From a virus, in IMG/VR virus record IMGVR_UViG_3300031576_000147, positions 1-40,355 of that record: a stretch of DNA of 40,355 nucleotides; one strand, 5' to 3'. Each line of letters starts with the position of its first letter. Position 1 is the stretch's first letter. The notes under the pieces were generated by a model that was given only the letters and a program-made list of their open reading frames with translations, made no database searches and was not told the DNA's origin. A program made the translations under genes and the position numbers. Shown piece by piece: positions 33,807 to 37,335 of the stretch.

Positions 33807-34469
33807 TCATCCCTCCTCGAACGATAGGAGCGAGAACCGCCCCCAGCCCATCTTGCGCGACGCGCCGATCCCGACCCATTCGCCCGCGTACACCAGCGCC
33901 GAGCGGAGCACTTCCGGACGCACCATCTCGGGGTTCGGGTCGAGGGTGCCGCTCGCGAGTACCTTGTCCGTCGCGGGAACCTCGGCAGGCGGCTCCGCGC
34001 CGACGTAACGGTTGACCCGCAGACCGCGCTGGTTCGAGAGCTTCGCTCCGGTGCCCGCGGACACCACCGCGAACCGCCGCCATTCGAGCGCCGCTTCCGC
34101 AGAGATGTCCGTGGTCCAGCCCGACGCCCGAAGGACGGTCCTGACGAGATCGGGGGGACAGGGGCGCCCAGCGGCACGGATCGTGTCGCACGTCGCCACG
34201 AGCATCGCATCGACGTTCGCCTTCGGGATCACGACCCGGCCGTCGGGGTCTGTGTGGAACGGCCGCTCGGCGAGGCGGACGAGGTTGTCGTAGTCGCCCA
34301 GGGTCATGCTTATGGTCTTGAGATGTTCTTCCAGCGCTTTGCGGCGGTTGGCCGAGGACCGGGCACGGTTCATGCCCGACTCCTTCTGGATGTTGATCAG
34401 TTGCTCCATCTCCGGCCAGTAGGGGTGGGCGATGTAGGAGTGCAGGTGGATCTGTAGTTCGATGCTCAT
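33807..34469 (-). CDS. RAMP-like protein with glycine-rich loop, 220 aa
   Basis: ATG 34469 overlaps the upstream stop (TGATG). The protein has a beta-alpha-beta-like start (SIELQIHLHSYIAHPYWPEM) and a long central helical region. Near the end is the glycine-rich loop GIGASRKMGWGRF (201-212), which fits the G-x-G-x5-G-x-G loop of CRISPR RAMP proteins (Cas5/6/7-type). No other Cas gene or array is present. The family seems to occur alone in phages and prophages; the role is unknown. RNA binding is inference. Confidence 0.6.
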   Translation of the reverse strand: MSIELQIHLHSYIAHPYWPEMEQLINIQKESGMNRARSSANRRKALEEHLKTISMTLGDYDNLVRLAERPFHTDPDGRVVIPKANVDAMLVATCDTIRAAGRPCPPDLVRTVLRASGWTTDISAEAALEWRRFAVVSAGTGAKLSNQRGLRVNRYVGAEPPAEVPATDKVLASGTLDPNPEMVRPEVLRSALVYAGEWVGIGASRKMGWGRFSLLSFEEG

Positions 34470-34651
34470 CACTGTGCTCCTTTCGGCGGCGTTGGCGTGG
34501 GCGCTGGCGTCGGCGTCGGCGAGGGCGCAGGCGTCGGCGAGGGCGTTGGCGTCGGCGTCGGCGGGGGCGTTGGCGTCGGCGTCGGCGCAGGCACAGGCGA
34601 GGGCGGAGGCGCCGGCGTCGGCGGAGGCGTCGGCGGCGTGGTCGCTCTCAC
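34469..34651 (-). CDS. Proline/threonine-repeat protein, 60 aa
   Basis: GTG 34651 overlaps the (restored) stop of the disrupted zinc protein gene (GTGA). Nearly the whole sequence is PTP/TPT/APS repeats (TPPTPPPTPAPPPSPVPAPT and similar), ending in PPKGAQ. It looks like a disordered linker or coat segment. The DNA is a hexanucleotide-type repeat, so length may vary. Confidence 0.5.
   Translation of the reverse strand: MRATTPPTPPPTPAPPPSPVPAPTPTPTPPPTPTPTPSPTPAPSPTPTPAPTPTPPKGAQ
34486..34640. repeat. GGCGTC-type short tandem repeat
   Basis: Six-base units based on ggcgtc (with ggcgtt, ggcgag, ggcgca variants) encode the Pro-Thr repeats of the small ORF on the minus strand. Such repeats expand and contract easily. 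Confidence 0.7.
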
Positions 34652-34671
34652 GCGTACTCCCTGCGGCGCCA
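34648..34671 (-). pseudogene. 3' end of the IS-interrupted zinc protein gene
   Basis: After the target duplication the remaining codons encode WRRREYA and a stop. Together with 37114-37335 they rebuild the 81-residue protein. Confidence 0.85.
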
Positions 34672-34679
34672 GCTCGAGG
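34672..34679. repeat. Target site duplication, left copy
   Basis: GCTCGAGG, repeated exactly at 37114-37121. The 8-bp length agrees with the IS1595 family. Confidence 0.92.
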
Positions 34680-34710
34680 GGGAACTATAAAGTTGACACA
34701 CGTAGCCTCC
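34680..34710. repeat. Left terminal inverted repeat of the IS
   Basis: Starts GGGAACTATAAAGT; the following bases (tgacacacgtagcctcc) align with the right end with a two-base gap. It contains the transposase promoter. Confidence 0.9.
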
Positions 34711-34721
34711 ACGTGTAAACT
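34693..34721 (+). promoter_or_regulatory. Transposase promoter in the left terminal repeat
   Basis: A perfect -35 TTGACA (34693-34698) and -10 TAAACT (34716-34721) are separated by 17 bp, and the ATG is 7 bases after the -10, so the mRNA is leaderless or nearly so. The spacer contains the inverted repeat ACACGT...ACGTGT, a possible operator. Confidence 0.7.
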
Positions 34722-34728
34722 CAGGGTC

Positions 34729-35685
34729 ATGGCAGCGACCAAGACCACCCGCCGCAACGACCCGAAGCGCCAGCGCTCGTCCGAGTCGCGCTACTCGCTG
34801 ATGGAGTTCGAGGCCGAGTTCCCAGACGACTCGGCGTGCATGGACTTCTTGGTGACCAAGCTCTACCCGGAGGGCATCCATTGCCCTCGCTGCGAGCGAG
34901 TGACCAAGCACCACAGGATCAAGGCGCGGACGGCGTATTCGTGCCAGTTCTGCGGCCACCATGAGTACCCGCTGAAGGGCACGATCTTCGAGGGATCGTC
35001 CACGTCGCTGCGGCTGTGGTTCTACGCGATGTATCTGATGGCCAGCACTCGATGCGGCATCTCCGCGAAGCAGTTGGAGCGCGAGGTCGGGGTCTCCTAC
35101 CCGACCGCTTGGCGCATGTTCCGGCAGATCCGCTCGATGCTCACGCAGGACGGCAACCCGCTCTCGGGGACGGTCGAGATGGACGAGACCTTCATCGGTG
35201 GGAAGCCTCGCGCGGGAGACATCCGCACCCGCAAGGACATCCGAACCTTCACCGAGAACAAAGCCAAGGTGCTCGGAGCCGTCGAGCGCGGCGGGCGCGT
35301 GCATGCGCAGGTCGTACCTAGCAGGAAGGCTTCCACCATCGTGCCGATCGCCAAGGCCCGGGTGCTGCCCGCGTCCACGATCTACACCGACGAGCTGAAG
35401 TCCTACCGCCAGCTCGGGCGCGAGGGCTACACGCACCAGCGGATCAACCACTCCGAGCGGGTGTACGTCCATGGCGACGTCCACACCCAGACCATCGAAG
35501 GATTCTGGGCACTGCTCAAGAACGGCCTCACCGGGGTCTACCACTCGGTCTCGACCGAGTACCTTCAGTCCTACCTGGACGAGTACGCGTTCCGCTACAA
35601 CAACCGGGCGATCACGGGTCGTCGCGGGATGTTCGACGCTTTCCTTTCGAGGATCGAGAAGGCTTCCCCGCAGACCGCTTCTTAG
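34729..35685 (+). CDS. IS1595-family DDE transposase, 318 aa
   Basis: Moves the element by cut-and-paste DNA transposition. The N-terminal zinc ribbon has C-x2-C pairs at C52/C55 (CPRC) and C72/C75 (CQFC). An HTH-like segment follows (LRLWFYAMYLMASTRCGISA). The catalytic domain has Asp152 (VEMDETFIGGKPR), Asp221 (YTDELKSYRQLG) and Glu257 (TIEGFWALLKNGL), the DDE set of the family. All visible key residues are present, so it is likely active. The start was chosen at ATG 34729 just after the promoter; a longer frame upstream runs through repeats. Confidence 0.95.
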   Translation: MAATKTTRRNDPKRQRSSESRYSLMEFEAEFPDDSACMDFLVTKLYPEGIHCPRCERVTKHHRIKARTAYSCQFCGHHEYPLKGTIFEGSSTSLRLWFYAMYLMASTRCGISAKQLEREVGVSYPTAWRMFRQIRSMLTQDGNPLSGTVEMDETFIGGKPRAGDIRTRKDIRTFTENKAKVLGAVERGGRVHAQVVPSRKASTIVPIAKARVLPASTIYTDELKSYRQLGREGYTHQRINHSERVYVHGDVHTQTIEGFWALLKNGLTGVYHSVSTEYLQSYLDEYAFRYNNRAITGRRGMFDAFLSRIEKASPQTAS

Positions 35686-35788
35686 CAGCCTTGTCGAACA
35701 CGTCGAACACGTCGGAGCGCTTAGGAACGGGTATCTCGTACCCCTGTTCCGTGCGCTGCGTGTCGCGCTTGCCATTCTTCTTCGGCAT
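35612..35788 (-). CDS. Small basic ORF antisense to the transposase 3' end, 58 aa
   Basis: ATG 35788 encodes PKKNGKRDTQRTEQGYEIPV, then PKRSDVFDVFDKAAKK and a Lys/Arg/Ser-rich tail, overlapping the last 74 bases of the transposase gene in antisense. The core (EIPVPKRSDVF) gives an impression of a family seen with such transposases, but this is memory and not a search. It may encode a regulator or a DNA-binding protein. Confidence 0.5.
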   Translation of the reverse strand: MPKKNGKRDTQRTEQGYEIPVPKRSDVFDVFDKAAKKRSAGKPSRSSKGKRRTSRDDP

Positions 35789-35806
35789 GACGTCTCCATT
35801 CTAAGC

Positions 35807-36637
35807 ATGAGTGATCCCGCCCACTACGACGCCTCGTGGCGTCTCAAACTCGACCGGGCGCAGGAGCATCTCCGTGACTTCCAAGACGAACTGTGGAGGT
35901 ACATCGACCGCGAGCCTTATGAGGCCCTTCTGCGGCAGGAGAGCAAGGCGAAGCCTGGCAGGCTGCGGGCCTACCTCCGCGTCACGGAGCAGCCCCCGGC
36001 TCGCCTGGCGATCTTGGCTGGCGACGCGATCCACAACACCCGCTCGTCCCTCGATCATCTGGCCGCGTCCATCGTGCCGAGCAAGAGGAGAAGCAAGGCC
36101 TTCTTCCCGATCGTGGGGGTCCCTCGTCCGGGGAAGATTCGTGGTGAGCCGACGCCCCGCGAACGTCAAGACCTCGAAACATGGGAGCGTTTCGACAGCG
36201 CGACCAAGGGCATGCCCGAAGAAGCGGTCACAGCAATCACGGACCTGCAACCGTTCAATCACGGCCCGGCCGCCGCACAAGGACACGTCTTGAGCGTCAT
36301 CAATCGGTTGGACAACGCGGACAAACATCGGCAGCTCCTCGTCATGGTTCCCGGTCTCACCAACGCCAACACGCAGATAGGCACGAGCGAGATGTCCGTC
36401 GGGACCCACCGATTCGCCCAGTTCGTGCAGGACGGCGCAATACTCACGGGGACCTCCTGGCTCGATGGCACCAAGCCACCGGAACTCGAAGTGCACGTGA
36501 AGGTGAGCGGTCGCATCGAGGTAGCCCTTGAAGTTCGAGGGACCGGGGAACACATAGCTGTCACAAGCATGGAGAGCTTCGTCGGGTACATCCGAAAGAC
36601 GGTGCTTCCCGAGCTGGAACCGTTCGCGAAGCCATAA
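35807..36637 (+). CDS. IS passenger gene, HEPN-motif-like protein, 276 aa
   Basis: Helical start (WRLKLDRAQEHLRDFQDELW), then a middle block GDAIHNTRSSLDHLAASIV, where R-S-S-L-D-H fits the R-x4-H pattern of HEPN domains. Later RLDNADKHR is a second conserved-looking motif. This family is common as hypothetical proteins in many bacteria. HEPN nuclease activity is a hypothesis only. The start ATG 35807 lacks a clear ribosome site. It is carried with the transposase and may act as a cargo or accessory. Confidence 0.65.
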   Translation: MSDPAHYDASWRLKLDRAQEHLRDFQDELWRYIDREPYEALLRQESKAKPGRLRAYLRVTEQPPARLAILAGDAIHNTRSSLDHLAASIVPSKRRSKAFFPIVGVPRPGKIRGEPTPRERQDLETWERFDSATKGMPEEAVTAITDLQPFNHGPAAAQGHVLSVINRLDNADKHRQLLVMVPGLTNANTQIGTSEMSVGTHRFAQFVQDGAILTGTSWLDGTKPPELEVHVKVSGRIEVALEVRGTGEHIAVTSMESFVGYIRKTVLPELEPFAKP

Positions 36638-36670
36638 CACCTAGCCCACCCCCCAGATAGGAGCGGCGCG

Positions 36671-37012
36671 ATGCTTGACCCGATCTACATCGCTGAACTT
36701 GCCCGCGACGGGTACATAGAAGGCCAGACGTTCACGAAGAAACGCATCATGGGTCCGGCCGTCCTGTTCCCGGAAGAGATGGAGGTGCGCCGAGGGGGCG
36801 CGCACGGCAGCGTGAAGGGCGCGTTGTGGCTGTTGCCCAGCGCCGCGCTCATCCAAGGCGCAATCAGCGTGAAGGGCTGCACCTTCGTTGACTGCACGTT
36901 CGAAAACATCGGCTGGGCAGCCGCGGACTTGGCCAACCTGGAGAGTCAGGTGGGCTGGATGTTCGATGGCGACGACACACGGCCTCAAGTGTGGTCACCC
37001 CACAACAACTGA
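36671..37012 (+). CDS. IS passenger gene, small conserved protein, 113 aa
   Basis: ATG 36671 has AGGAG 8 bases upstream, so it is translated efficiently. The sequence RIMGPAVLFPEEMEVRRGG is followed by GALWLLPSAALIQGAISVKG and CTFVDCTFENIGWAAADLAN. The C-T-F-x-D-C-T-F strand pattern is like a short beta-helix rung and occurs in small uncharacterised proteins. It follows the previous passenger gene by 33 bases; they likely form one transcript. Confidence 0.65.
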   Translation: MLDPIYIAELARDGYIEGQTFTKKRIMGPAVLFPEEMEVRRGGAHGSVKGALWLLPSAALIQGAISVKGCTFVDCTFENIGWAAADLANLESQVGWMFDGDDTRPQVWSPHNN

Positions 37013-37079
37013 CCCTTGGCGCGACTCACCCGGATAGCGGTACACCCATCGTGAATCGGCGGGGCAAGCGGCTCATGCT

Positions 37080-37113
37080 CCGAGGCTATACGTGTAGCCA
37101 CTTTATAGTTCCC
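37080..37113. repeat. Right terminal inverted repeat of the IS
   Basis: Reads ACTTTATAGTTCCC to the element end on the plus strand, the inverse of the left end. A palindrome GGCTA-TACGTG-TAGCC lies just inside. Confidence 0.9.
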
Positions 37114-37121
37114 GCTCGAGG
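37114..37121. repeat. Target site duplication, right copy
   Basis: GCTCGAGG, identical to 34672-34679. Confidence 0.92.
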
Positions 37122-37335
37122 CGTGAGGGCACGTCGCGAAGTGGGAGCGGTGCAGGTCCATCCCCACAGGCCCGCCGGGGGCCTGCCAGACCCGGATGAG
37201 CTGGTCGCCACGGTCGGAGAAACCGAGCATCTCGACGCGGCCGCCGGGATCGATCTCGGCGTTGACGGGCATCGACTTGCCCGCTTCGGTCCGGCACCAC
37301 ACGATCGCGTGACCGCAGTTCCGGCATCGGCTCAC
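37114..37335 (-). pseudogene. Zinc-binding early protein gene cut by the IS
   Basis: ATG 37335 overlaps the helicase stop (ATGA). It encodes CRNCGHAIVWCRTEAGKSMP, then VNAEIDPGG and HRSHFATCPH, a common small phage zinc protein in which the first Cys pair and the later His/Cys cluster bind the metal. After codon 74 the frame enters the IS and stops at 36985. Without the IS the protein is 81 residues, and its TGA overlaps the GTG of the next gene. Confidence 0.88.

Follow-up and report, generated by a model that had tools for sequence, protein, structure and literature searches.

The segment between positions 34680 and 37113 of this phage contig is, as judged from its sequence, an intact IS1595-family transporter IS. 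Between its ends it carries, besides the transposase gene, a divergent pair of genes encoding a small basic peptide and a 276-aa protein of what we call the RxxLD/DKH family. According to our comparisons, elements of one IS1595 clade (transposases ~47% or more identical to the present one) combine a transposase with a small gene encoded on the other strand and with a slot for variable cargo. The RxxLD/DKH family fills this slot more often than any other cargo seen, and wherever it does, the small gene lies divergently upstream of it. Phages and bacteria alike have repeatedly received this unannotated gene pair from a single group of very small transposons. We give a probability of roughly 0.45 to the reading that the RxxLD/DKH gene and the small gene make up a two-gene unit, toxin-like or anti-phage, that this clade carries; the pair is compact and offers a candidate for a new unit of either kind that can be tested.

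The element and its place in the phage genome

The element spans 2434 bp and is bounded exactly as the first-pass annotation had described it. The terminal inverted repeats match at 14/14 positions (GGGAACTATAAAGT at 34680-34693 on the + strand and its reverse complement at 37100-37113 on the − strand), and the 8-bp target duplication is equally perfect (GCTCGAGG at 34672-34679 and at 37114-37121). In the window, by which we mean the whole stretch of 40,355 nucleotides that was analysed, there are nine exact 14-bp inverted pairs at most 5 kb apart, and identical outer 8-mers are found only at 34680-37113. An 8-bp target duplication is a trait of the IS1595 family (PMC8101967), and the element combines it with inverted repeats tipped by GG.

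The transposase gene (34729-35685, + strand) is intact and encodes 318 amino acids that match PF12762 (DDE_Tnp_IS1595; E 1.4e-45), PF12760 (N-terminal zinc ribbon; E 8e-10) and NF033547 (E 9.4e-63). Both features expected of an IS1595 transposase are present, a DDE domain with its D, D and E and an N-terminal zinc ribbon, and the catalytic residues D152, D221 and E257 as well as the zinc-ribbon cysteines C52, C55, C72 and C75 are invariant in alignment A4. Together, the ends, the duplication and these domain matches bear out the initial description of an intact, cargo-bearing IS1595-type element in a phage, and the perfect duplication around an intact element makes the recent insertion proposed at the same time probable. 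A predicted promoter for the transposase (TTGACA-17 nt-TAAACT, 34693-34721, + strand) overlaps the left end and is the sole promoter-like match in 34600-37200; most related elements have TTGAC immediately inward of their left end. Since this promoter stops just 7 nt before the ATG, the transposase mRNA is probably leaderless.

Besides the transposase gene, two + strand ORFs and one − strand ORF lie inside the ends. Transporter ISs (tIS), a known kind of element, have been defined in PMC9330008; the present element carries cargo without a transposition role as they do, although its small − strand gene might still act in transposition.

The element occurs once in its record, a virus contig of 40 kb from IMG/VR. 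The phage genes of this contig include those for an integrase, terminase, portal, major head, tape-measure, replication-initiator and DnaB-like helicase protein, and the terminase is ~34% identical to terminases of phiC31-kind Streptomyces phages. From this gene set and the terminase likeness, the element resides in a temperate phage whose host is probably an actinobacterium. A second copy of the very same element was not found in its own record or among the relatives reached, so that its hopping between phage and host is something we infer rather than observe. An empty insertion site was not found in related phages either: relatives of the left-flank gene are present and the two flanks are never adjacent. 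When the flanks are joined without the element they read as a short ORF ending CPHASSWRRREYA-stop, of which only the last residues are changed by the insertion, and a short phage ORF (MSRCRNCGHAIVWC..., window 37113-37335) now extends into the element and comprises 116 aa. To the left of the element, the hexamer CGGCGT is repeated ~25 times with 74% matches in window 34487-34635, just upstream of gene 33810-34469(-); similar C-rich tracts precede the homologue of this gene in two viral contigs (L172 and L175).

The 276-aa cargo protein and its recurrence

The 276-aa cargo protein (35807-36637, + strand) was placed in the RxxLD...DKH family by alignment A3 and a 48-row set. It has zero matches in Pfam, NCBIfam, PHROGs and PADLOC, no relative with a solved structure was found, and scans of the viral contigs with the single 276-aa or 113-aa protein returned nothing; members of the family were reached solely via alignment searches of viral contigs and genomes. 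G72, R79, L82, P101 and D172 are invariant in 48 members, H174 is kept in 47/48, the position between D172 and H174 is K or R, and position 83 is D, replaced by E in three. Of the two motifs first read from the sequence, R-x4-H stands as to its R (R79, 48/48) and falls as to its H, since H84 is present in just 32/48 members, while D-K-H-R survives as D-K/R-H at 172-174. The constant core of the family is thus R79-x3-D83 plus D172-K/R-H174, and the constancy of these polar residues (R, D, D, K/R, H) despite ~25% identity suggests that the protein is an enzyme.

Two AlphaFold models of the family (pLDDT ~80) are in part helical, the helices being interspersed with strands, and a viral model, A0A514TZW7, matches the predicted fold with an E of 3e-10. 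R-x4-H is positioned on a long predicted helix, as would be convenient if the 276-aa protein were an RNase toxin of the HEPN ribonuclease superfamily, and the R is present in every member. However, the HEPN motif is a conserved R-x4-6-H with a polar N, D or H after the R (PMC3710099), whereas in the RxxLD/DKH family the H is dispensable in a third of the set and the residue after R is mostly S, A or T. No HEPN family was matched, and Foldseek with the two models yielded no PDB match at E<0.001. With a motif that is not strict and neither a family nor a fold match, we rejected HEPN membership, which we regard as very improbable.

How often the family travels with a transposase was assessed in 396 genomes from the phylum of Acidimicrobiales genome G001. 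The family occurs in 31 and the transposase in 24 of these genomes; both are present in 12, compared with 1.9 expected (P ~8e-9), and at 10 loci in the 31 carrier genomes the family gene lies beside an IS1595 transposase, compared with ~0.02 expected. Among near-full-length transposase copies that are at least 51% identical, 8/11 carry the family. At least six viral contigs, the present one included, have a family gene together with an IS1595 transposase (L004, L023 and L207 are additional contigs of this type). Full elements with the family gene, both ends and an exact 8-bp duplication were found on viral contigs (L003, L038) and in genomes (L034, L084, L094, L095); at L101 the ends match at 13/14 positions and the duplication is near-exact, and at L091 the ends match at 14/14 positions and the duplication is absent. 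When same-ended elements devoid of passenger genes were sought, the single element whose 14-bp left end is identical, L084 in genome G098 (transposase 65-67% identical), turned out to have kept the family gene and the small gene and to be without the 113-aa ORF.

The recurrence of the same pair in related elements of both phages and bacteria makes it probable that selection maintains the cargo, and it fits the earlier suggestion of a selected trait. Neutral hitch-hiking, in which the ends would have enclosed host genes by chance that await loss, could account for the wide variation of cargo among elements and for the frameshifted 113-aa gene of L101. We nevertheless consider it improbable, and difficult to defend in the case of the 276-aa gene, since the RxxLD/DKH family recurs far above chance and maintains constant residues. 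Transposases up to 76% identical are accompanied by family cargo that is just 23-34% identical, which points to fast change or exchange within the family. A single origin of the IS-borne members was discarded, the tree being too divergent and forcing at least four changes. Most family members outside these elements are without both transposase and small gene. Sequence searches also recovered gene 32 of the Gordonia phages ZiggyZoo and Samba, located near the integrase/repressor region; in ZiggyZoo (L171), a cultured phage, a serine integrase and a repressor are encoded nearby.

Other cargo is frequent. Many IMG/VR viral contigs contain IS1595 elements that measure 1.8-3.7 kb and are flanked by exact 8-bp duplications (L003, L006, L007, L009, L012, L013, L015, L016, L018, L038); their cargo comprises DUF6338, DUF3800, N6 methylase, trypsin-like and membrane-like proteins. 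Among IS1595 relatives in genomes (L148, L157, L162, L163) we observed a HigBA-like pair, Fic, a DNA methylase (weak Mrr match) and PemK.

The small antisense gene and the 113-aa ORF

The small gene (35612-35788, − strand) encodes a basic peptide of 58 aa with the core motif ...G(Y/L)EIPVPxxxxxxxxLxK... and shares 74 bp with the 3′ end of the transposase gene; because this conserved gene overlaps the transposase on the opposite strand, standard annotation likely misses it. An 18-bp gap (35789-35806) separates its start codon from that of the divergent 276-aa gene. Within the gap lies the ribosome site of the small gene, GGAG; no such site can be recognised for the family gene. In many loci the gap sequence is conserved as (CAT)nGTnyCTCCattCTA, and the two starts are usually ~15-30 bp apart. 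In a profile search, each of the 21 first-set loci with both genes had the small gene immediately before the family gene and divergent from it, and viral contig L207 provides one more. Variation at the three codon positions is 0.45/0.38/0.60, with the third highest, in columns that lie partly within the transposase overlap. The small antisense ORF noticed at the outset is a real gene. A small gene in a fixed place beside a larger one (21/21 loci) is reminiscent of type II toxin-antitoxin systems, whereas the co-directional operon of such systems is not seen here, the two genes being divergent.

The distribution of the small gene follows the transposon. Within the 1.22 Mb profiled, each match (E<=0.05) either lies at most ~1 kb from a transposase that is at least 47% identical to the present one or adjoins a family gene, and 0/36 loci with a transposase below 47% identity have one, counts that are descriptive because the profile was trained on some of the counted sequences. 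The identity of the small gene tracks that of the transposase and not that of the cargo (Mantel r 0.41, p 0.02, 8 elements). Furthermore, the gene, or its motif as a tail, is found beside different cargo in viral loci L202, L205, L206 and L208, the motif forming the C-terminal tail of another small protein in L208. These four loci rule out an exclusive partnership with RxxLD/DKH cargo, and together with the clade-limited matches they lead us to view the small gene as part of the make-up of the transposon clade, not as cargo-specific. All this, and the fact that the gene overlaps the 3′ end of the transposase gene in most elements, would suit a regulator of transposition or a partner of the transposase, whose transcript, running antisense into the transposase 3′ end, may lower expression; RxxLD/DKH would then simply be the most frequent occupant of a general slot. 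We hold this to be rather unlikely, since the divergent placement by the family gene persists where the pair is inverted relative to the transposase (L095) and where no transposase is in view (L082, L093, L096, L105). It is also kept at L003, where a DUF6338 gene separates the pair from the transposase. The strictness of the divergent pairing slightly favours an antidote role over that of a transposition regulator.

In more distant IS1595 relatives (L160, L162, L163, L165, L020) we observed a tail resembling ERFExLLRKLVSVPKxELDxRE, encoded antisense to the transposase either as a small ORF or at the C-terminal end of cargo that is itself unrelated, for example the trypsin-like protein of L165. 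It corresponds to no Pfam family.

The 113-aa ORF (36671-37012, + strand) has its own AGGAG ribosome site, starts 33 bp after the 276-aa gene and is optional cargo. Its relatives occur in 10/396 genomes, beside a related transposase just at L101 and L154. L101, with a frameshifted relative after the family gene, is the sole other such element with the same gene order; at L154 the relative (32% over 84 aa) accompanies a more distant IS1595 transposase. A related transposase was present at none of ten other loci examined. An obligate partnership was dismissed, given that elsewhere the relatives are without such a transposase. Thus, of the proposed co-occurrence of three genes, the 276-aa family and the small gene remain (21/21) and the 113-aa ORF drops out, the steady partner of the 276-aa protein being the small antisense gene and not, as initially supposed, the 113-aa protein. 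The L154 relative (L154:5916-6236) has a weak pentapeptide-repeat match (6e-4), and its match to the model of the Hailong effector HalA (1.6e-5) is far below the cut-off.

Proposed function and known systems

In the toxin-like or anti-phage unit that we propose, the RxxLD/DKH protein would be an enzyme, most likely an effector attacking RNA or nucleotides, and would act as a toxin or abortive-infection factor, with the small basic peptide as its regulator or antidote. Of the two genes, whose 5′ regions overlap, only the small one shows a ribosome site; it could consequently be the better expressed of the two and restrain the effector. Such a unit might maintain element-bearing replicons in a population, or shield prophage hosts from rival phages, and the 113-aa protein would be an optional extra. 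The occurrence of PemK, a HigBA-like pair, Fic, DNA methylases and DUF3800 as other cargo of IS1595 relatives points toward such a unit. Counting against such a unit are the zero family or fold matches to any enzyme class, a small gene that also accompanies different cargo and tracks the transposase in identity, and the absence of both transposase and small gene from most family members outside these elements. More tentatively, the clade-constant small gene may link the transposon to interchangeable cargo and, when combined with an RxxLD/DKH effector, constitute a mobile toxin or anti-phage unit on phages.

Transporter ISs of the IS1595 family were reportedly treated by Siguier et al. in 2009 (Res Microbiol 160:232, cited in PMC12561309). 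The present element shares with them the transposase domain, the zinc ribbon, the GG tips, the 8-bp duplication and the presence of cargo between the ends; it differs by its undescribed divergent two-gene unit and its location in a phage genome. The RxxLD/DKH and small-gene pair had no description in the open-access papers searched, a set to which the 2009 article does not belong. With the HEPN toxins (PMC3710099), the likeness is confined to a motif resembling R-x4-H that many RxxLD/DKH members have on a long helix; the constants of the family are R-x3-D and D-K/R-H, and a fold match is absent. Gene 32 of ZiggyZoo and Samba belongs to the same protein family and is likewise phage-borne but, unlike the present gene, has no annotated transposase alongside. 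Toxin-antitoxin pairs are documented cargo of Tn3-family transposons, where a small two-gene unit is likewise located beside transposition genes and has been acquired repeatedly (PMC7157771). Those are known type II pairs positioned by the res site, whereas here the genes are divergent, belong to no known family and have a putative function. Transporter ISs and toxin-antitoxin cargo of transposons are therefore already known, and it is the cargo pair that is new here.
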